NCBI GenBank assembly: GCA_003164035.1
Contig: PLRS01000162.1
Coordinates: 124,001 to 188,000, forward strand
Direction: 5' to 3'
DNA: 64,000 bases
From: Bryobacterales bacterium
Lineage (GTDB): Bacteria; Acidobacteriota; Terriglobia; Bryobacterales; Bryobacteraceae
Made by a program: the position numbers and the translations under genes. Shown here in pieces: positions 16,893-27,054 of the stretch (position 1 is its first letter; the number at the start of each line of letters is the position of its first letter). Under the pieces are notes generated by a model that saw only the letters and a program-made list of their open reading frames with translations, was not told the origin of the DNA and searched no databases.

Positions 16893-18676
16893 TGGGCCGC
16901 CCGGCGGTCGCCGTCGCGGCAGCAGCTTCACTCGTGCTTGCTCTCGGCCTGCTGGAGAGGCAAGCCCTTTCGCAAATGATCTCATCCGGGGCCACCGACC
17001 AGCCGGTGCGCCCGCTGCCACCCGGCATGAAAGCTCCGGCGATCGATTTCCGCGACGTCGCCGCCCAGGCCGGGCTGAACGCCGTGGTCGTCTCCGGCGA
17101 ACTGGACCAGACCTTCGTGGTCGAAAACACGGGTACCGGCGTGGCCATCTTCGACTACGACAACGACGGGCTGCCGGACATCTTCCTGGTACAGGGCGAT
17201 CGGCTGAAGCCCAGCTCCGCGCCCCTCACGCCGCACCTCTATCACAATCTGGGCGGGCTGCGCTTCGAGGACGTCACCGAAAAAGCCGGCATCGGGCACA
17301 CCGGATGGGGCCAGGGCGTATGCGCCGGCGACGTCGACAACGATGGCCACGTGGACCTGTTCCTGGGCCAGTGGGGTCACAACGTATTTCTCCACAACAT
17401 GGGGAACGGAACCTTCCGCGACGAAACCCGCGAGCGCGGCCTGGACCGTCCGGGCTCGCGCTGGAGCACCGGCTGCGCCTTCATCGACTACGACCGGGAT
17501 GGGTGGCTGGACCTGGTAGTGGCCAACTATATCGATTTCGACGCGCAGCAAACGCCCCGTCCGCGCGACCGCAGCGGCTGCAACTGGAAAGGCGTTCCAG
17601 TACCGTGCGGCCCGCGCGGCCTCAAGGGCGAAACCATGACCCTGTACCACAACGACGGCCACGGCCATTTCACCGATGTAACCAAACAGGCCGGCGTCGA
17701 AACGCCGCGCGAGTATTACGGCTTCACGGTGCTGACCGGCGACTTCGACAACGACGGTTGGCCGGACTTCTATGTGACCTGCGATTCCACCCCAAGCCTC
17801 TACTTCCACAACAAGCGCAACGGGACGTTCGAGGAAACCGGCCTCGTCACCGGCCTGGCCGTCAATGAGGATGGGCGGGAACAGGCGGGGATGGGCGCGA
17901 CCGCGGCCGATTACGACGGCGATGGTTTCCTCGATATCTTCAAGACCAACTTCTCGAGCGATACCAACACCCTCTATCGCAATATGGGCGATGGCACGTT
18001 CAGCGATGTCACCGCCCGCGCCGGACTGGCGGTTCACACCCAGTACGTAAAATGGGGCGCTGCGTTTGTGGACGTCGACAACGACGGTTGGAAGGATCTG
18101 TTCATCGCCGACGGGCATGTCTATCCCTTCATCGAAAAATACGGCCTCGGGGAAGAGTTTCATCAGCCCCGCCAGTTCTTCTGGAACCGCGGCGACGGGC
18201 AGTTCTTCGATATGTCCTCCGCCGCCGGCCCGGGCATTACCGCCAGGCACGCCTCGCGCGGCGTCGCCGTGGGCGACCTGGACAACGATGGCTCCGAGGA
18301 GATTGTCGTCGTCAATCTTTTCGAGCCCCCTTCGTTGCTGAAGAACTTCGCCCCCGCCGGCAACGCTCTGCTGGTGCGGGCCGTCACCGCGTCCGGCCGC
18401 GACGCGCTGGGCGCGCGCATCACCGTCGCCAGCGGGCATCGCAAGCAGATCGACGAGGTGCGCAGCGGCGGGTATCACATTTCGCAGGGCGACTTCCGGA
18501 TCCACTTTGGCCTCGGAAAGGCGGTCAAGGCGGACGTAACCGTGCGCTGGCCCCAGGGCGCTGTCGAAAGTTTCAAGGACGTAAATGCCAACCAGTGGAT
18601 CGTGGTGCGCGAGGGCAAGGGAATTGTGGAGCGGCACCCGTTCGGGCGATCCGCCGGCGCTTCCCTTCAACGATAA
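16892..18676 (+). CDS. FG-GAP repeat protein with ASPIC/UnbV domain (CRTAC1-like)
   Basis: A 594-aa exported protein starting at the ATG at 16892 that overlaps the upstream TGA by one base; longer in-frame starts are not supported. The N-terminus has a signal-like segment (AVAVAAAASLVLALGLLE). Seven calcium-binding FG-GAP motifs are visible, for example DYDNDGLPDIFL, DVDNDGHVDLFL, DYDRDGWLDLVV, DFDNDGWPDFYV and DLDNDGSEEIVV, consistent with a seven-bladed integrin-like propeller. The C-terminal 60 residues or so form the ASPIC/UnbV domain (LGARITVASG, VRSGGYHISQGDF, FGLGKA, VRWPQG). It probably acts outside the cell with the coupled TPR protein. Confidence 0.92.
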   Translation: MGRPAVAVAAAASLVLALGLLERQALSQMISSGATDQPVRPLPPGMKAPAIDFRDVAAQAGLNAVVVSGELDQTFVVENTGTGVAIFDYDNDGLPDIFLVQGDRLKPSSAPLTPHLYHNLGGLRFEDVTEKAGIGHTGWGQGVCAGDVDNDGHVDLFLGQWGHNVFLHNMGNGTFRDETRERGLDRPGSRWSTGCAFIDYDRDGWLDLVVANYIDFDAQQTPRPRDRSGCNWKGVPVPCGPRGLKGETMTLYHNDGHGHFTDVTKQAGVETPREYYGFTVLTGDFDNDGWPDFYVTCDSTPSLYFHNKRNGTFEETGLVTGLAVNEDGREQAGMGATAADYDGDGFLDIFKTNFSSDTNTLYRNMGDGTFSDVTARAGLAVHTQYVKWGAAFVDVDNDGWKDLFIADGHVYPFIEKYGLGEEFHQPRQFFWNRGDGQFFDMSSAAGPGITARHASRGVAVGDLDNDGSEEIVVVNLFEPPSLLKNFAPAGNALLVRAVTASGRDALGARITVASGHRKQIDEVRSGGYHISQGDFRIHFGLGKAVKADVTVRWPQGAVESFKDVNANQWIVVREGKGIVERHPFGRSAGASLQR

Positions 18677-18722
18677 CTATTGCGTTATTATTGGGCGGAT
18701 GTTACAGTCTTGTCGGTGCCTC

Positions 18723-20309
18723 ATGCGATTTCACGCGCTCTTCCTTTCGGGCCTTGTCGCCGCCGCCGCTTCGGCGCAGACTCCCAACGCCGACGACCTG
18801 GCGTGGCAGAAAGCCGTCCATAAGTTCGACGCCACGCGCGCCGCGCTCCTCCGCAAGGTGGACGCGGCCGGCCAGACCGGGCCATTCCGCCCCAACTGGG
18901 ACTCGCTCAAGCAATACCAGGTTCCCTCCTGGTATCAGGATGCCAAGTTCGGCATTTTCCTTCATTGGGGCGTCTACTCGGTTCCCGCCTTCGGCAACGA
19001 ATGGTACCCGAGGAACATGTACAAACAGGGCACGCCGGAGTTCGCCCATCACCTGGCTACCTTCGGCCCGCAGTCGAAATTCGGCTACAAAGACTTTATT
19101 CCCAGGTTCAAGGCGGAAAAATTCGATCCCAAGGCGTGGGCCGATCTGTTCCAAAAGGCCGGCGCCAAGTACGTGGTTCCCGTTGGGGAGCACCATGATG
19201 GATTCGCCATGTACAACTCGGACCTGAGCGACTGGTCCGCCGCGAAAATGGGCCCCCACCGGGACGTCGTGGGCGACCTGGCGCAGTCGGTCCGAGCCGC
19301 CGGCCTGCACTTCGGCGTCTCCAGCCACCGGGCCGAGCACTACTTCTTTCTCAATGTGGCGAGAGAGATCGACTCGGATGTGCGCGACCCGCAATTCGCG
19401 GCATTCTACGGCCCCGCGCACGTTGGCGTCACCGACAAGAACAACATGCACTGGGGCGGGCATCCGGATGCCGCGTATCTGAACGACTGGCTGGCCAGAG
19501 CGGCGGAAATGGTCGGCAAGTATCAGCCCGAGATTCTATGGTTCGACTGGTGGATCGAGACGCCGGAGTTTCAGCCTTATCTGCAGCGTCTGGCGGCGTT
19601 CTATTACAACGATGCGGGCCGCCGCGGCTCTACCGCCGCCATCAATTACAAGTTCGACGCTTTCCAGCCCGGCACGGCTGTTTTGGACATCGAGCGCGGC
19701 CAGTCGGACCAGATCCTACCGCGATTCTGGCAGACCGATACTTCGGTGAGCGTCAAATCCTGGGGATACATCGACAACGATACCTTCCGTTCGCCGGAGT
19801 CTCTGGTGCAGGAACTGGTGGATATCGTGAGCAAGAATGGCGCCCTGCTGCTCAATGTCGGTCCGAAATCCGACGGCACGATTCCCGAGCAGGCGCAAAA
19901 CGTGTTGCTCGCCATGGGCCGTTGGCTTTCGATCAACGGCGAAGCCATCTACGGCACGCGGCCCTGGAAGATCTCCGGCGAAGGTCCCACCAAAGTTGTC
20001 GGCGGTTCGTTCAACGACACGGCCACCAAGCCCTACACCGGCCGCGATATCCGGTTCACCACGCGCGGCGGCCTGCTGTATGCCATCGCGCTCGGCTGGC
20101 CGCCCGATGGTAAAATCAAAATCCAATCGCTGGCCCGCGGATCGAAGGCGCTGGATTCGGAAATTGGCGCCGTTCAATTGCTCGGCTACGGCGGCAACCT
20201 GAAATGGTCCCGCGATGCGGAGGGCCTCAAGATCGAATTGCCGGCGGCGCGGACCGGGGAGTTCGCCTGGGTGTTTCGGATCGCGCGGGCCAATCGCGCG
20301 GCGCGCTAG
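18723..20309 (+). CDS. Alpha-L-fucosidase, GH29, exported
   Basis: A 528-aa glycoside hydrolase that should release terminal L-fucose from glycans by a retaining mechanism. The start at ATG 18723 gives a good signal peptide (MRFHALFLSGLVAAAASA); an alternative Met at 18699 would extend it by eight residues. GH29 landmarks: PSWYQDAKFGIFLHWGVYSVPAF (69-91, family motif split here), HHDGFAMYNS (157-166) and ILWFDWW (271-277), where Asp275 sits at the catalytic nucleophile position. KNGALLLNVGPKSDGTIP is the conserved late motif. The next gene on the strand is a sulfatase, and oxidoreductase and sialidase-like genes follow, which suggests breakdown of fucosylated, sulfated glycans. Confidence 0.93.
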   Translation: MRFHALFLSGLVAAAASAQTPNADDLAWQKAVHKFDATRAALLRKVDAAGQTGPFRPNWDSLKQYQVPSWYQDAKFGIFLHWGVYSVPAFGNEWYPRNMYKQGTPEFAHHLATFGPQSKFGYKDFIPRFKAEKFDPKAWADLFQKAGAKYVVPVGEHHDGFAMYNSDLSDWSAAKMGPHRDVVGDLAQSVRAAGLHFGVSSHRAEHYFFLNVAREIDSDVRDPQFAAFYGPAHVGVTDKNNMHWGGHPDAAYLNDWLARAAEMVGKYQPEILWFDWWIETPEFQPYLQRLAAFYYNDAGRRGSTAAINYKFDAFQPGTAVLDIERGQSDQILPRFWQTDTSVSVKSWGYIDNDTFRSPESLVQELVDIVSKNGALLLNVGPKSDGTIPEQAQNVLLAMGRWLSINGEAIYGTRPWKISGEGPTKVVGGSFNDTATKPYTGRDIRFTTRGGLLYAIALGWPPDGKIKIQSLARGSKALDSEIGAVQLLGYGGNLKWSRDAEGLKIELPAARTGEFAWVFRIARANRAAR

Positions 20310-20344
20310 CGGAGCGTCCGAGAAATAAGTATGGGAAGGGCCGC

Positions 20345-20437
20345 CTGCAGCCAGGATTGGCTGCCCCATGGAGCGGCGTAGCCGCAAGCAAGAGCGCCGG
20401 GATGAGCCCCGGCGTGGCAGACTGAGAGTCCGCTCCA
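20345..20437. repeat. Dispersed palindromic repeat between fucosidase and sulfatase genes
   Basis: Contains an inverted copy (20345-20367) of the 23-bp sequence at 12065-12087 with one mismatch (core CTGCAGCCAGGATTGGC). It is followed by GGAGCGG (20370-20376) pairing with CCGCTCC (20431-20437) around an inner GCGCCGGG...CCCCGGCG hairpin. The spacer carries no evident gene. Confidence 0.65.
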
Positions 20438-20470
20438 CGTAAAAGTCGTTGCGGCGGAAGGCTACTGAGA

Positions 20471-22036
20471 GTGCATCGACGAAACTTCGTAAGATCGCTG
20501 GGCGGCGCCAGCGCCGTGGCGGTTGCGGCGCGGGCCGCCGGGCAAGCCGGCAGGGCGCCCAGGCAAGCCGTCGTCATCATGAACGATTCGGTCCGCGCCG
20601 ATATGCTGAATTGCTATCGGCACACCGGACTTCAGACGCCGAATCTGGACCGGCTGGCCGCGGGCGGCACGCGGTTCGACCGCGCGTATACCTGCCAGCC
20701 GGTGTGCACCCCGGCGCGCTCGGCCTTGTTCACCGGCACGTATCCCCACAGCAACGGAGCGTGGGCCAACAGCCTGCCGCTCGGGACCACCGTCCACACC
20801 GTCGGCCAGCGCCTGCACGATAAAGGAGTACGCTGCGCCTATATCGGCAAGTGGCATCTGGACGGGTCCGACTACTTCGGTGTGGGCCGGCCCGCTCCCG
20901 GCTGGGACCCGGCCTACTGGTACGATCAACGAGACTATTTGTACGAGCTCACGCCGGAGAACCGGGTTCGTTCGCGCCAGACGGCCACCAACCGGGATCC
21001 CGGCCTGACCGCCGAGTTCACTTTCGGCCACCGCTGTTCCAACCGGGCCATCGACTTCCTGAATAAACACTCGGCCGAGGATTTTCTCCTGGTGGTGTCA
21101 TACGACGAGCCGCATGGCCCGTATCTGTGTCCCCGGCCTTTCTCGGAGATGTACAAGGATTTCGTCTTCCCGAGCGGTCCCAATGCGGCCGACCCTCTGG
21201 CCGGCAAGCCCGCCGAGCAGCGCGTCTGGGCGGATGGCAGATTGGGACGCCCGCCGCAGCCAGTCACGGCGCCCGACTTTTTCGGCTGTCTGAGCTTCAT
21301 CGATAGCGAGATCGGCCGCGTACTCGACGCCATCGATCGCGTGAGCCGCAACGCGCTGGTGGTCTACACGGCCGACCACGGCGACTTTCTCGATTCGCAC
21401 CGGCTGGACGGCGGCAAGGGGCCGTGCATGTACGAGGAGATCACCCGCATCCCCTTTCTGGTGCGATGGCCCGGCCACGCGCCGGAAAACTCCGTCTGCC
21501 CTCACCCGGTTTCGCACATCGACGTCACCGGGACTTTAATGGAATATTTCGGCCACGAATTGCCCAGGAGCCTGGAGGGCGGGAGCATGCTGGCCACCTT
21601 CGAGAATCCGGCGCGCAAACCGCGCGACGAGATCTTCATGGAGTTCGGCCGCTACGAAGTGGATCACGATGCCTTCGGCGGGTTCCAGCCCATTCGCTGC
21701 GTTTTCGACGGCCGTTTGAAATTGTCGGTTCATCTGATGACCAGCGATGAGCTCTACGATCTGGAGAAGGATCCGGCCGAGATGACCAACCTGATCGACT
21801 CGCCGGAGCACGCCGCCGCCAGAAACCGGCTGCACGACAAGCTGCTGGACTGGATGGACCGCACGCGCGATCCGTTCCGCGGATACTATTGGGGCCGGCG
21901 CGCCTGGCGTCCGGATTTTTCCGTCCGCTGGAACAACGCCGGAATGACCCGGCAGCGCGAGGACGATGGCTACGAGCCGCGCCAGCTCGTCTACGAAACC
22001 GGACTCACCATGAAGGACGCAACGCGGCCCAAGTGA
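20471..22036 (+). CDS. Sulfatase (FGly type), Tat-exported
   Basis: A 521-aa type I sulfatase starting with GTG at 20471, with GGAAGG about 8 bp upstream. The N-terminus MHRRNFVRSLGG...AVAVAARAAG is a Tat-type signal (RRNF). The active-site motif CTPARSALFTG begins at Cys79, the residue converted to formylglycine (C-x-P-x-R), and VVYTADHGDFLDSH supplies later metal ligands. The first metal motif reads IMNDSVRAD, a variant of the commoner DDxR. The C-terminal WSL-type region is intact. Between the fucosidase and a Gfo/Idh oxidoreductase, it probably desulfates glycans. No sulfatase-maturating enzyme is seen in the window. Confidence 0.92.
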   Translation: MHRRNFVRSLGGASAVAVAARAAGQAGRAPRQAVVIMNDSVRADMLNCYRHTGLQTPNLDRLAAGGTRFDRAYTCQPVCTPARSALFTGTYPHSNGAWANSLPLGTTVHTVGQRLHDKGVRCAYIGKWHLDGSDYFGVGRPAPGWDPAYWYDQRDYLYELTPENRVRSRQTATNRDPGLTAEFTFGHRCSNRAIDFLNKHSAEDFLLVVSYDEPHGPYLCPRPFSEMYKDFVFPSGPNAADPLAGKPAEQRVWADGRLGRPPQPVTAPDFFGCLSFIDSEIGRVLDAIDRVSRNALVVYTADHGDFLDSHRLDGGKGPCMYEEITRIPFLVRWPGHAPENSVCPHPVSHIDVTGTLMEYFGHELPRSLEGGSMLATFENPARKPRDEIFMEFGRYEVDHDAFGGFQPIRCVFDGRLKLSVHLMTSDELYDLEKDPAEMTNLIDSPEHAAARNRLHDKLLDWMDRTRDPFRGYYWGRRAWRPDFSVRWNNAGMTRQREDDGYEPRQLVYETGLTMKDATRPK

Positions 22037-22051: not shown

Positions 22052-23227
22052 TCAAGAGCTGGCGCTGAATCCATCGGCGCTCAAGTGGGCCTGCCTGCCC
22101 GCATGGAACGCCACGTTGGCCAGGTGCGGGGCCGATACGGCACTGGCACCCACCTCCACCGGCGCATTGGGCTCGCGGCGGGACTTGACGCAATCGAGAA
22201 AATTCTGAATGTGCGTTTCGATGGGAATGGGAGCGGCCACGGTCTCGACCGGATCCGGGTTCTTCGGTACCGGCTCTTTCCAGATGCGATAGCCGGCATT
22301 GTTCAGGATCATGGTGCCTTCGTCGCCCTGGAACTGAATCGACCAGTCGTTTTCGTAGGAGTTACAGTAATTCAGAGTCCAGGTAGCCATCAGATCCGGG
22401 TATTCGAAGACCGCGCAGAAAACGTCCGGCACTTCCGAGCCGGCGTTCTTGGCCCGTTGGCCGTAGCACACTGCCGAACGCGCCATGCCCGAATTCGTGA
22501 ACCACTGCACCACGTCCATCAGGTGCGTTCCCTGGTCCGTCATATTCCCGCCCGAATAATCCCAGAAGTAGCGCCAGGAACGAAAACGCATCGGCTCCAG
22601 GTCGCGATCGGGCGCGGGACCGAGGAAGCGCTTCCAATCCAGGGTGCCGGGCAGGGTTCGGTTGTCGAGCGGCTTCGAGACGTTCCAGTTCCACATGGGC
22701 TTGACCAGCGAGATTCTGCCCAGCGCGCCGCTATCGACAATCTTCTTGGCGGCCAACACCGCGGGCGCGCTACGCCGCTGCATCCCCACCTGGACGACTT
22801 GCGAGGTCTTGCGCACGGCTTCGATCATCTGCCTGCTTTGTTCCAGCGAATGGGACATCGGCTTTTCCAGGTAGACGTCCTTTTTCGCCTCCAGCGCGGC
22901 ATAAAGCATGGGGGCGTGCTGATGGTCGGGCGACGCCACCACTACCGCGTCCAGGCCCGGGCGCGCAAGCAGGTCGTGGTAATCCAGGTACGGTTTGGCG
23001 CCGGGAGAATCCTTTAGCGCCGTCTGCAGATTGGGTTCGTACACCTCGGCGATGGCGGCGCACTCGGCGCCCAGCTTTTTGAAATTACCGTTGAGGTAGC
23101 GGCCACGCCCGCCGGCGCCGATCAGGCCGTAGACAACGCGATCGTTGGCGCCCCAGGCGCGGCGCGGAACCAACAACGGTGCGGCCGTCAAAGCCGATGC
23201 CAGGAAAGTCCTGCGATTGGGATGCAT
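22052..23227 (-). CDS. Gfo/Idh/MocA-family oxidoreductase, Tat-exported
   Basis: A 391-aa NAD(P)-dependent sugar oxidoreductase. I use the ATG at 23227 (MHPNRRTFLASALTAAPLLVP), which provides a twin-arginine signal; the open frame runs 50 codons further upstream without signal character. The Rossmann motif is GLIGAGGRGRY, followed by VVASPDHQHAPM and the family EKP motif (YLEKPMSHS). The C-terminal domain contains DQGTHLMDVVQWF. The gene converges on the sulfatase (15 bp between stops) and is divergent from the sialidase-like gene. It probably oxidises or isomerises a sugar released by the neighbouring hydrolases; the substrate is unknown. Confidence 0.9.
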   Translation of the reverse strand: MHPNRRTFLASALTAAPLLVPRRAWGANDRVVYGLIGAGGRGRYLNGNFKKLGAECAAIAEVYEPNLQTALKDSPGAKPYLDYHDLLARPGLDAVVVASPDHQHAPMLYAALEAKKDVYLEKPMSHSLEQSRQMIEAVRKTSQVVQVGMQRRSAPAVLAAKKIVDSGALGRISLVKPMWNWNVSKPLDNRTLPGTLDWKRFLGPAPDRDLEPMRFRSWRYFWDYSGGNMTDQGTHLMDVVQWFTNSGMARSAVCYGQRAKNAGSEVPDVFCAVFEYPDLMATWTLNYCNSYENDWSIQFQGDEGTMILNNAGYRIWKEPVPKNPDPVETVAAPIPIETHIQNFLDCVKSRREPNAPVEVGASAVSAPHLANVAFHAGRQAHLSADGFSASS

Positions 23228-23445
23228 AGCGTTTACTGTAGTCCGACGAAGCGGCGGGAGCAAGGCCGGGGTGGATGGTTCGCCGGCTGGAAGAAAGCCG
23301 CAAGCGGTAAGGCGACGTGAAGAAATCAGAAGTCGCAGGCGGAACCGGCTGGGCCACGCGGCGGCGCGCGGGTACAAGAAACGCGGAATAATGGTGCGTG
23401 GCGCCGCACGGCCCTTCAGAGCAAGCCGACCTCCAGGGGGAGCCT

Positions 23446-24564
23446 ATGATCGGACGCAGAGATTTCCTTTTTGCGGGCGCTGTGGCAGCCGCGCTCCCGG
23501 CGCGAACCGCTCCACGGCCACACGTCGAATCGATCGCCACCATCAGCCGGCAGCCCGAGTTTTATCATGGGTGGGCGACGCTGGCGGCGCGGCGGGACGG
23601 AGAATTGCTGGTCGTCTACTCCGGCGGCCGGGAGAGCCACGTGTGCCCATTTGGCCGCGTGGAACTGATTCGGTCGCGCGACGGCGGCCAAACCTGGAGC
23701 TGGCCCGAGGTACTGCTGAACTCTCCTATCGACGACCGCGACGCGGGCGTACTGGAAACTCCAGCGGGCTCGCTACTGGTCACCACCTTCACTTCGCTGG
23801 CATATGAAGCTGCGTTGGAGCGCGCTTCCGATTGGGCGCCGGAGAAGCTTGCACGCTGGCAGGCCGTGAATCGCCGCGGCACCCAGGAGCAGCGCCGGGC
23901 ATTGCTGGACACGTGGATGCTACGCTCCACCGATGGCGGAATGACCTGGTCGGCACCGTACCGCGTTCCTCTAAACAGCCCCCACGGTCCGGTCGCTCTG
24001 TCCGGCGGACGCCTGCTTTATGCCGGAAAACAACTGTGGCAGCCCGGGCAGAAGGTCGGGGTATGCGAATCCGTGGACGATGGCCAGACCTGGCGCTGGC
24101 TGTCGGATATCCCCGCCCGAGCGGGCGATTCGGCAGTGGAGTATCACGAATTGCACGCCGTCGAAGCGGCGAATGGCCGGATCATTGTCCATATTCGCAA
24201 TCACAACCGGGCGAACCGGGGCGAAACGCTGCAATCGGAATCGGCCGATGGCGGGAGGAACTGGAGCGCGCCGCATGCAATCGGAGTCTGGGGCCTGCCG
24301 TCGCATCTGCTGCGGCTGCGGGACGGACGGGTGTTGATGTCGTACGGATATCGCCGTGCGCCATTTGGCAACCAGGCACGGATCAGTTCCGATCATGGGG
24401 AGACATGGTCGAAGCCCATCGTCATCTCCGATGACGGCGCCGGCGAGGACCTCGGGTATCCGGCGACGGTGGAACTGGCGAGCGGGCAATTCACCACCGT
24501 TTGGTATGAGTCTAGGAAGGGCTCGGCGCACGCGGTGCTCCGGCAGGCCAAGTGGTCGATCTGA
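23446..24564 (+). CDS. BNR/Asp-box sialidase-family protein
   Basis: A 372-aa protein starting at ATG 23446 with GGGGGAG just upstream and a Tat-like leader (MIGRRDFLFAGAVAAALPA). Five Asp-box motifs mark a six-bladed sialidase-type propeller: SRDGGQTW, STDGGMTW, SVDDGQTW, SADGGRNW and SSDHGETW. A late YESRKGS could hold the conserved Tyr/Arg of sialidases, but the full catalytic set was not verified, so activity as an exo-sialidase is uncertain. It lies in the fucosidase/sulfatase block. Its 3' end overlaps the convergent pdxA by 53 bp. Confidence 0.8.
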   Translation: MIGRRDFLFAGAVAAALPARTAPRPHVESIATISRQPEFYHGWATLAARRDGELLVVYSGGRESHVCPFGRVELIRSRDGGQTWSWPEVLLNSPIDDRDAGVLETPAGSLLVTTFTSLAYEAALERASDWAPEKLARWQAVNRRGTQEQRRALLDTWMLRSTDGGMTWSAPYRVPLNSPHGPVALSGGRLLYAGKQLWQPGQKVGVCESVDDGQTWRWLSDIPARAGDSAVEYHELHAVEAANGRIIVHIRNHNRANRGETLQSESADGGRNWSAPHAIGVWGLPSHLLRLRDGRVLMSYGYRRAPFGNQARISSDHGETWSKPIVISDDGAGEDLGYPATVELASGQFTTVWYESRKGSAHAVLRQAKWSI

Positions 24565-25531
24565 TTCTCCGCCTGGTCGCGGCCATGCGGGCGGCCATGC
24601 GCATGGCCTGCTTCATGCTGCGCGGGTTGGCGCGGTTGGTGCCGGCGATGTCGAATGCCGTGCCATGATCCACCGATGTCCGAATAATGGGAATGCCCAG
24701 GGAAATATTCACCGTGCCTTCGAAATCGATGAGCTTCATGGGAATGTGCCCCTGGTCGTGATACATGGCGACCACCAGGTCGTAGGCGCCGCGCGAAGCC
24801 TGCAGAAAAATGCTGTCGGGGGCGTGCGGGCCGCTGCAGTCGATGCCCTTCGCGCGCGCGGCTTGAATCGCCGGCAGGATCGTCCGCTCGTCCTCGGTGC
24901 CGAACAGGCCGTGTTCGCCGGCGTGCGGATTCAGCCCGCACACGGCGATCCGCGGCCGCGCGAAGCCGAGCAGTTTCATGGCGTCGTCACCCAGCTCGAT
25001 GGTGCGGGCCACGCGCGCGGCGGTCGCCTCGCAAGCCTGGCGCAGAGGCACGTGAGTGGTTACGTGGACGGTCGCAAGCCGCTCGCTCGCCAGCAGCATG
25101 CGCGATTCCGAACCGCCGCACAATTGCGCAATGTACTCGGTGTGGCCGGAGAAAGCCATCCCGGAAAGCGCGACCGCTTCCTTATTCAAGGGCGCCGTAA
25201 CCATGGCTTCCGCCTTCCCGGCCAGGCAAAGCTCAGTGGCCGCGCGAACGTAAGCCACGGCGGCCTGGCCGCACCGCGCATCCAGCCGGCCGAAGCGAAA
25301 ATCCTCCACATCCCCCAGCGCATCCACGTCGATCCGTTCGGCGCCTTCCAGTTTCGTCCCCGCAATCCGCTCGGCCATCTCGAGAACCCGCCGGTCGCCC
25401 ACGACAAGCCAGCGCGCCAGCGCGGCAAGCTCGCGGTCGGCCAGCGCCTTCACGACAATCTCCGGGCCGACGCCGGCGGGGTCGCCCATGGTGATCGCGA
25501 TCGCGGGCAAGGTTTCGGTAACGTCTGTCAT
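24512..25531 (-). CDS. pdxA: 4-hydroxythreonine-4-phosphate dehydrogenase
   Basis: A 339-aa PdxA, the NAD-dependent enzyme of the DXP-dependent pyridoxal phosphate pathway. Clear family motifs are ITMGDPAGVGPEI at the N-terminus, TAPLNKEA, GHTEYIA (metal-binding His), CGLNPHAGE and YHDQGHIPMK. Length is normal (about 330 aa), but the last 25 residues are Arg/Ser-rich and unusual, lying in the overlap with the convergent sialidase-like gene. It overlaps rpiA by 4 bp (ATGA-type) and is the third gene of a csoR/rcnR-like - rpiA - pdxA operon. Confidence 0.95.
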   Translation of the reverse strand: MTDVTETLPAIAITMGDPAGVGPEIVVKALADRELAALARWLVVGDRRVLEMAERIAGTKLEGAERIDVDALGDVEDFRFGRLDARCGQAAVAYVRAATELCLAGKAEAMVTAPLNKEAVALSGMAFSGHTEYIAQLCGGSESRMLLASERLATVHVTTHVPLRQACEATAARVARTIELGDDAMKLLGFARPRIAVCGLNPHAGEHGLFGTEDERTILPAIQAARAKGIDCSGPHAPDSIFLQASRGAYDLVVAMYHDQGHIPMKLIDFEGTVNISLGIPIIRTSVDHGTAFDIAGTNRANPRSMKQAMRMAARMAATRRRIRSTTWPAGAPRAPSPS

Positions 25532-26232
25532 CGTCGTTCAAACCGCCGTTTCATCACTCGTACTCCGTCCGCGCCGGCCAGGTGAACCTCCGACGTCATG
25601 CCGATAAAAAGCCCGTGCTCCACCACCCCCACCACGTGGTCCAACTCGCTTGCCAGGACTTCGGCGGATGCGATCGACCCAAATCGGCAATCCAGAATAT
25701 AGTGGCCGCCATCGGTCACGAAAACTTCGCGCATGGTGTTGCGGCGTAACGTCGGGGCCGCTCCCAGCCCCGCCAGCCGCGCGGCCGTGCTCTCCCACCC
25801 GAACGGGACCACCTCCACCGGAATCGGATCGCGGGCGCCCAGGTGCGTCACCAGCTTGCTGGAATCGGCCACGATGACCAGGGCCTTGGTCGCCGTCGCC
25901 ACCAGTTTTTCCCGCAGCAGCGCGCCGCCCAGTCCCTTGATCAGGTCGAGACTGCCCTGCTCCACTTCGTCGGCGCCATCGATAGTCATGTCGATGCTCG
26001 ACACCTCGGCCAGCGTGGTTAGCGGGATGCCTAAAGCCTTCGCCTGCGCGGCGGTGGCTTCCGATGTCGGAATGCCGGTAATGTGCAATCCGCCGCCGAC
26101 TCGCCTGCCGAGGGCACTCACGGCCAGCGCCGCGGTCGACCCCGATCCGAGCCCTACGATCATTCCGTCCGTCACCCGCGCGGCGGCCGATTCCGCGGCG
26201 GCGGCTTTCAGTTGGTCCTGGTTTTCACTCAT
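25528..26232 (-). CDS. rpiA: Ribose-5-phosphate isomerase A
   Basis: A 234-aa RpiA interconverting ribose-5-phosphate and ribulose-5-phosphate in the pentose phosphate pathway. Motifs include GLGSGSTAA (phosphate binding), IDGADEVEQ (catalytic Asp/Glu region), LIKGLGGALLREK (catalytic Lys region) and the C-terminal GVVEHGLFIGM. Length is typical. It starts 9 bp after the upstream CsoR/RcnR-family repressor gene and overlaps pdxA by 4 bp, so the three genes almost certainly form one transcript controlled by the operator at 26548-26567. Confidence 0.95.
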   Translation of the reverse strand: MSENQDQLKAAAAESAAARVTDGMIVGLGSGSTAALAVSALGRRVGGGLHITGIPTSEATAAQAKALGIPLTTLAEVSSIDMTIDGADEVEQGSLDLIKGLGGALLREKLVATATKALVIVADSSKLVTHLGARDPIPVEVVPFGWESTAARLAGLGAAPTLRRNTMREVFVTDGGHYILDCRFGSIASAEVLASELDHVVGVVEHGLFIGMTSEVHLAGADGVRVMKRRFERR

Positions 26233-26241
26233 GCCGTTGGT

Positions 26242-26520
26242 TCACTTGAGATAGGCGCGCAGCGCGCTGACCAGGTCGTCGGCCGCCCGCGTCTGCTCCG
26301 CGGTGGTGCTTCCATCCGCCGCCAGAATGTGGAATCGAATGTGACCTTCGATCACCTCCGCCATCAACGCGTCCATCGCTCCCCGGCAGGCCGAAATATT
26401 GTGCAGAATCTCGGAGCAATCGGCTTCTTCGTCGAGCCCTCTCTCGATCGCCGCCACTTGCCCCATGATGCGCCGGATGCGGTTTAACAGCCGCTTCTTC
26501 TCTTCCGTAGTGTGTGCCAT
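26242..26520 (-). CDS. CsoR/RcnR/FrmR-family transcriptional repressor
   Basis: A 92-aa all-helical DUF156 repressor. Family motifs are present: RIRRIMGQVAAIERGL, a helix with DCSEILHNISACRGAMDALM, then EVIEGHIRFHI. At the sensing positions it has His3, Cys35, His60 and His64, the H-C-H-H fingerprint of Ni/Co sensor RcnR, rather than the C-H-C set of copper CsoR; an extra Cys45 is present. It is first in an operon with rpiA and pdxA, and no metal transporter is adjacent. A GTATACC-N6-GGTATAC palindrome 28 bp upstream is the likely auto-operator. The true inducer (metal, formaldehyde or sulfur species) cannot be fixed by sequence alone. Confidence 0.92.
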   Translation of the reverse strand: MAHTTEEKKRLLNRIRRIMGQVAAIERGLDEEADCSEILHNISACRGAMDALMAEVIEGHIRFHILAADGSTTAEQTRAADDLVSALRAYLK

Positions 26521-26547
26521 AGGAAATTACCGGAAGGACCTTAACAA

Positions 26548-26567
26548 GTATACCCCCAGCGGTATAC
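26548..26567. promoter_or_regulatory. Probable operator of the CsoR/RcnR-family repressor
   Basis: The 20-bp sequence GTATACCCCCAGCGGTATAC has perfect 7-bp arms (GTATACC/GGTATAC) around a C-rich centre. It lies 28 bp upstream of the repressor start codon on the minus strand. This matches the known architecture of CsoR/RcnR/CstR operators (AT-rich TATAC arms with a G/C tract). It would control the repressor, rpiA and pdxA. Confidence 0.75.
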
Positions 26568-26594
26568 GCGAAGATCGGGCGGCCAGGTCTGGGC

Positions 26595-26747
26595 GCTTAA
26601 CCGATCTGGAGGAGTTAGTTCCCGTCGACCGCTCCCTCGCGGTCGCGGCTCGGTAAGTGACTGCAAACATGCGGTGCCGTAACCGAGCCGCGACCGCGAG
26701 GGAGCGGTTGCCGCGCCTAAGCTGCGAAATCCCCAAATCGGTTAAGC
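26595..26747. repeat. 153-bp cruciform-type palindromic element
   Basis: Outer arms GCTTAACCGAT (26595-26605) and ATCGGTTAAGC (26737-26747) match perfectly. An inner 26-bp perfect inverted repeat runs 26629-26654 / 26682-26707 (core GCTCCCTCGCGGTCGCGGCT). The central 27 bp are unpaired. It stands between the repressor operator and the chimeric pseudogene. There is no gene and no transposase in it, so it is probably a non-autonomous repeat. Confidence 0.85.
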
Positions 26748-26824
26748 AACCGCTCTTAGCGAATGCCGCGCACCTTTCCCGAAGCGCCTGCAATGCCAGG
26801 CCGTCCCCCCGGCGTGCCCGGCGG

Positions 26825-27054
26825 CTACTTCGTTCCAGATAACTCTGCGTAGAAGCGGTCGAGCCGGTCGCCGGTGATGTTAAGCCGCCAGCCGAGATCG
26901 TCCGTCTTGAGCTGACCCATCAGCCGATCCTCGGGGACACCTTCCTTCACCAGTGCGGTGGCGCGCGAAACCAAGCTGTCGATTTTGCTCTTGAACGCTT
27001 CCAGGTCGGCTCTGGTAACCACCGGCCCCGTGCCGGGTACGACTACGTCAAACA
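26825..27054 (-). pseudogene. C-terminal fragment of an MBL-fold metallo-hydrolase
   Basis: About 76 codons ending at a normal stop (26825-26827). The pattern FDVVVPGTGPVVTRADLEAFKSKI, then LVKEGVPEDRLMGQLKTDDLGW, matches the end of metallo-beta-lactamase-fold hydrolases (the usual xVVIPGHGPV, with His changed to Thr). No N-terminal metal-binding HxHxDH part exists upstream. Instead the frame continues directly into the end of a PQQ-propeller fragment, so it is a deletion product. Confidence 0.7.

Follow-up and report, generated by a model that had tools for sequence, protein, structure and literature searches.

A probably relocated CsoR/RcnR-family repressor ahead of rpiA and a pdxA homolog in an acidobacterial genome

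In the 64-kb stretch of DNA analyzed here (the window), we found a repressor gene of the CsoR/RcnR (DUF156) family, hereafter csoR, at the head of a unit with rpiA and a pdxA homolog, a linkage that is private to the window's genome among the loci compared. From the operators, promoters and gene neighborhoods described below, we predict that this is a relocated repressor: its ancestral targets were probably the promoters of porins and cation transporters, rpiA and a PdxA2-type pdxA probably came under csoR secondarily, and a metal is likely to release it.

The unit and its repressor

The order csoR-rpiA-pdxA runs compactly along one strand (Table 1), with 9 bp between the csoR stop and the rpiA start and with pdxA overlapping the rpiA stop by 4 bp. 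A preliminary description had drawn up an operon of an RcnR-like repressor, rpiA and pdxA, with no transporter in it, and this gene content holds. The source genome is an 8.0-Mb draft in 169 contigs (99% complete, contamination 4.29%).

Table 1. Features of the csoR-rpiA-pdxA unit and its upstream region (window positions).
Feature	Position	Strand	Basis
CsoR/RcnR-family (DUF156) repressor, 92 aa (A2, H3, D34, C35, H60, F63, H64)	26242..26520	-	PF02583, NCBIfam, alignment A1
rpiA, ribose-5-phosphate isomerase A	25528..26232	-	NCBIfam NF001924, 264 bits (cut-off 192); TIGR00021, 252 bits (cut-off 126.4)
pdxA homolog, most likely PdxA2 type (sugar-acid phosphate dehydrogenase)	24512..25531	-	TIGR00557, 361 bits; PDB matches
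Predicted operator palindrome GTATACC-N6-GGTATAC	26548..26567		Genome pattern scan; kept before csoR in relatives
Probable -10 element TATACT of the csoR promoter, inside the operator	26547..26552	-	TATnnT in 28 of 38 operator-bearing sites; inference
Decayed outward promoter TTAACA-N18-TACGCG, counterpart of the relatives' porin-facing promoter	26541..26570	+	TTKACR-N17/18-TAnnnT in 31 of 38 operator-bearing sites, absent here
Copy of a genome-wide, imperfectly palindromic repeat of ~160 bp, adjoining the operator	26590..26765		Own-genome search

The repressor matches PF02583 with 76.4 bits (cut-off 22.8) and is the sole PF02583 protein in the 8.0-Mb genome; this score, together with the Cys at position X (C35), places it in the CsoR/RcnR family. 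In an alignment with 27 same-family relatives (A1, which leaves out the incomplete L030 and L035 and the weaker matches), H3, C35, H60 and H64, the W-X-Y-Z residues of RcnR proper, do not vary among the 28 proteins. Position 2 holds Ala in 25 of them, the window included, Ser in two and Pro in one; residue 34, Asp in the window, is Glu in 20; and residue 63, Phe in the window, is F, Y, L or D across the alignment and never Glu. The cobalt ligands reported for RcnR are the N-terminal amine, His3, Glu34, Cys35, Glu63 and His64 (PMC7055735), and two of these, Glu34 and Glu63, are absent from the window protein. The exchange of Glu63 for Phe leaves the match to RcnR incomplete, so that Ni/Co specificity is not readable from the sequence. 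Where an RcnR-type nickel/cobalt fingerprint had been claimed, the four residues and the family thus stand, whereas Glu63 does not, and the NCBIfam RcnR score of 69 bits falls short of the equivalog cut-off of 138. Metal sensing by the repressor is plausible. The fingerprint is broken in two distant relatives outside A1, among the 14 of 46 protein starts listed: L178 lacks C35, and L164, from a Candidatus Sulfotelmatobacter MAG and possibly a decaying copy, lacks both C35 and H64.

In overall sequence, the repressor is nearer to FrmR than to RcnR: FrmR gives the top NCBIfam score (98 bits), and FrmR and its E64H variant are the closest PDB sequences (5lbm and 5lcy, one of which has His64). An FrmR variant of this kind, with His64, is reported to bind Zn and Co (PMC5016687). 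These matches would favor an FrmR-type sensor of formaldehyde or another aldehyde as the controller of the unit, a reading that we regard as highly improbable because the score lies below the FrmR cut-off of 133 bits, no formaldehyde dehydrogenase gene was recognized among the annotated neighbors and residue 2 is Ala. Pro2 is described as needed for formaldehyde sensing by FrmR (PMC5016687, PMC5146963), and the P2A form of the E. coli protein as unresponsive to formaldehyde (PMC5146963); Ala2 in its place makes formaldehyde sensing unlikely and speaks against the aldehyde control that had been suggested for the unit.

The operator, its promoters and the neighbors of csoR

The palindrome GTATACCCCCAGCGGTATAC, which had been noted ahead of all three genes, is indeed present there with 0 mismatches at 26548-26567, and a single exact copy of the 20-mer exists in the 8.0 Mb. 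With up to 2 mismatches, it has 7 matches in the genome against 4 in the control, which is near chance, and with 3 mismatches shuffled windows average 0.45 matches, so that a loose match alone means little. A longer form, TATACC-N6-GGTATA-NN-TGTAAAG, recovers at up to 3 mismatches exactly 2 genome sites against 0 in the reversed control, namely the one at the window csoR and one on another contig of the same genome, C123. A wide regulon in this genome was considered and set aside, as the loose matches are near chance and C123 is the only site besides csoR that fits the longer pattern; around the remaining five loose sites, inspection showed no shared gene context. Directly upstream of the operator lies the copy of the repeat, which is found on many contigs of the genome with at least 80 matches of 70-100% identity, in both orientations per copy (40 of 542 candidates scored), and which suggests a miniature-transposon- or REP-like family.

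We searched 237 genomes of the family and found a repressor match in 85 of them, about 30 being close, most named relatives being MAGs of Bryobacteraceae/Bryobacterales and of other acidobacteria. Two sets of csoR loci, 46 and 36 (3.9-12 kb, some of them short, with many contigs common to both), were compared, with ORFs picked mechanically by codon-position GC (some are shifted or overlap csoR) and families assigned solely by Pfam or by tblastn with Pfam-assigned proteins. The commonest neighbor of csoR, in a divergent arrangement, is an OprB porin (20 of the 46 loci), alongside NRAMP (6, one a fragment), MgtC (3 and a short fragment), PhoU (2) and CorA (1). P-type ATPases lie near csoR in 10 of the 46 (one partial), mostly in a more distant subfamily; in the eight whose motif I was listed (L064, L065, L067, L070, L072-L074 and L077, where csoR precedes the ATPase), the fourth helix displays ACG in place of CPx, the usual motif there. 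Neither rpiA nor pdxA is found beside csoR at any of the 46 or the 36 loci. Likewise, csoR and pdxA are absent from 29 rpiA loci (drawn from 48 relatives in which RpiA was matched), as are csoR and rpiA from 29 pdxA loci (drawn from 126 relatives with a match), some of these contigs too being short. The synteny in other acidobacteria that was to support a conserved program linking metal to rpiA and pdxA is thus missing from every csoR, rpiA and pdxA locus compared, and a conserved operon of this kind is rejected, the arrangement occurring in one genome alone.

Most relatives bear the same operator at the same position before csoR, and a survey of 50 sequences, 38 of them with the operator, points to its embedding in two divergent promoters. 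It lies inside an outward promoter (TTKACR-N17/18-TAnnnT; 31 of the 38) that faces the porin or transporter, while its other half supplies the TATnnT element before csoR (28 of the 38). The window csoR site belongs to the 7 of 38 that lack the outward promoter. At the C123 site, the outward promoter is intact (TTTACA-N18-TAGGAT) and faces an OprB porin (PF04966, 101.7 bits in Pfam; no match among PDB sequences), and neither csoR nor the csoR-facing TATnnT is present. This complementary loss, of the outward promoter at csoR and of the csoR-facing element at C123, is the pattern expected from a split csoR-porin divergon. Operator sites away from csoR are also seen in two relatives, in G025 before an MgtC gene (L116) and in G198 (L129/L191), and the csoR-facing element is absent from these too. 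In the place usually taken by csoR at the C123 operator, 81 bp from the site, there is a GHL6/glycosyl-hydrolase-like gene (Pfam; L078:9675-11774), which could be under the same operator.

Accounting for this pattern, we posit that the repressor ancestrally stood beside an OprB-type porin or cation-transport gene, where a single operator spanned two divergent promoters and the repressor would thereby have controlled both itself and its neighbor. This pair would have been split in the window's genome, csoR keeping its operator-promoter at the head of csoR-rpiA-pdxA and the porin keeping the second operator elsewhere. We infer that csoR moved rather than the porin, a direction that is not polarized by a sister genome, the nearest relative compared being of another genus. 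The apo-repressor would cover its own promoter and, in trans, that of the C123 porin; rpiA and pdxA, presumably co-transcribed, would follow csoR by read-through and be repressed with it; and a transition metal, bound at a site of the N-terminus, H3, C35, H60 and H64, would free both promoters. The two enzyme genes would then probably have joined recently, as passengers drawn from the metabolism of sugars or sugar acids.

The uniqueness of the linkage also raises an assembly chimera, in which a csoR end was wrongly joined to an rpiA-pdxA end of a draft with 169 contigs and 4.29% contamination. We hold this to be very unlikely, given that the junction, an operon-like gap of 9 bp, is internal to a 217-kb contig, that the repeat in the upstream flank recurs across many of this genome's contigs and that csoR has a matching second operator in that genome. 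A different reading is that metal control of rpiA-pdxA is real and selected, so that flux through pentoses and sugar acids would follow metal status. PdxA-type dehydrogenases use a divalent metal, and the tight spacing and shared operator speak for such control, as does a promoter scan of 24400-27000 that returned no minus-strand sigma-70-like promoter; the scan missed the csoR promoter as well, so that it is no evidence of absence and does not exclude an internal promoter. The restriction of the linkage to one genome, with none at the 46 and 36 csoR loci of relatives, further argues against selection, and we consider this reading rather unlikely, preferring that of a relocated repressor with passenger genes.

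CsoR has Cys at position Z, where the window repressor has His, and no copper genes adjoin the latter. The operator consensus of Streptomyces CsoR, ATATACCCCTNAGGGGTATAT (PMC3902906), is close to the window operator. E. coli RcnR, the Ni/Co sensor of rcnR-rcnA, shares with the window repressor the DUF156 fold family, H3, C35, H60 and H64, and a palindrome with a G/C tract between TA-rich arms that covers its own promoter (here as a prediction). Its operator is given as TACT-G6-N-AGTA (PMC7055735) against TATACC-N6-GGTATA here, and the two differ further in the RcnR score, in Glu63, which is Phe here, and in their company, RcnR sitting with the RcnA exporter and the window repressor with rpiA-pdxA and, ancestrally, a porin. 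Mesorhizobium NreA is described with an operator in the -35/-10 spacer of a promoter that it represses (PMC12724321), an arrangement like the one predicted here; unlike the window repressor, it has its nickel efflux genes nreXY downstream.

rpiA, pdxA and sugar-acid metabolism

Among PDB sequences, the window pdxA is closest to 2hi1 (285 bits) and 6e85 (281 bits), which are PdxA2 / D-threonate 4-phosphate dehydrogenases, while the E. coli PdxA entries (we take 1ps6 to be E. coli PdxA) score 183. The window's genome has one PF04166 protein and, 99% complete as it is, yielded 0 matches to PdxJ, for which control genomes gave matches. DUF1537 proteins are four-carbon sugar-acid kinases that act with PdxA2, and a DUF1537 gene (PF07005/PF17042) adjoins pdxA at 28 of 29 relatives' loci (tblastn; nine confirmed by Pfam), the sole miss being L214, whose contig begins inside pdxA. 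Unlike these PdxA2 systems of sugar-acid catabolism, the window has no DUF1537 gene within its 64 kb, including beside pdxA. With PdxJ not found and DUF1537 adjoining pdxA in the relatives, the window pdxA is most likely of the PdxA2 type, and rpiA-pdxA is best read as belonging to sugar or sugar-acid metabolism. RpiA occurs in 49 of the 237 family genomes, and that of the window also encodes three RpiB-family proteins. Beside the unit, the segments 22052-24564 and 18585-22036 hold a BNR-repeat protein and a Gfo/Idh/MocA oxidoreductase (Pfam) and ORFs that resemble alpha-L-fucosidase and sulfatase by eye, a glycan-degradation neighborhood that fits a carbon role for rpiA-pdxA.

The unit had instead been proposed to serve vitamin B6 synthesis, with RpiA supplying ribose-5-phosphate and PdxA a PLP precursor, and the pdxA homolog does score above the TIGR00557 cut-off. 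PdxA2 paralogs are described as hard to tell from PdxA and as serving acid catabolism, though able to catalyze the PdxA reaction (PMC9997740). The same source takes PdxJ to signal the DXP-dependent route to PLP and has the ribose-5-phosphate route run via PdxS/PdxT rather than PdxA (PMC9997740). The missing PdxJ, the DUF1537 genes of the relatives and this routing all weigh against a role of the unit in B6 synthesis, which we judge to be quite improbable.

A leader ORF and the divalent-cation circuit

Downstream of the outward promoter and ahead of the porin or transporter gene, we uncovered an ORF of ~30 codons, near MSDG..S..R.....ESAEPPS and behind a GGAGG site, in 20 of 53 sequences. This count was limited to ORFs with EPP in frame and a site resembling GGAGG or AGGGGG, so that the regularity of the frame is partly built in. 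The GAGCCTCC codons (Glu-Pro-Pro) are complementary to the ORF's own ribosome-binding site. This leader is seen at L078 (the own-genome C123 porin), L139, L146, L180, L184-L187, L191 and others, and also before NRAMP genes in G133, G134 and G136, three genomes without a csoR match; at L116 (MgtC), it is shortened and the complementary GCCTCC is out of frame. An alignment of 21 leaders folds to only the one helix between these codons and the ribosome-binding site (-6.7 kcal/mol). Differences are seen in 39% of pairs at codon position 1, 35% at position 2 and 46% at position 3, so that selection on the peptide is not demonstrated. A comparison of 18 loci with Rfam gave no family for the leader, the 5 matches obtained all scoring well under the gathering thresholds. 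In the part of the literature searched, no such leader was described ahead of NRAMP genes, which does not prove it new.

Acidic residues in short ORFs are reported to control enterobacterial Mg transporters, as with MgtL (PMC11282234) and MgtQ (PMC8092293). More tentatively than the relocation itself, we suggest that the RcnR-fingerprint repressor and the leader ORF might together control genes for divalent-cation uptake (NRAMP-related, MgtC and OprB porin) at two levels, with rpiA and pdxA2 rewired to the same signal in the window's genome. It is a difficulty for the proposed mechanism that metal would then switch on genes of import type (NRAMP, CorA, porin). Transport of Mg is reported to be within the capacity of NRAMP-related proteins, including one from Acidobacterium capsulatum (PMC4072509); with MgtC and CorA among the neighbors, this makes possible, as a conjecture, a Mg-related circuit with a transition metal as the toxic signal.

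Regulators of the DUF156 family ordinarily serve exporters or detoxification, and here a clade of them with the RcnR W-X-Y-Z residues sits on the promoters of porins and cation transporters. One member placed before carbon genes, with its old target keeping the operator elsewhere, would be a clean case of regulon rewiring, and it cautions against taking pdxA next to rpiA as a sure sign of vitamin B6 synthesis. More generally, these loci point to an unstudied divalent-cation circuit in acidobacteria.
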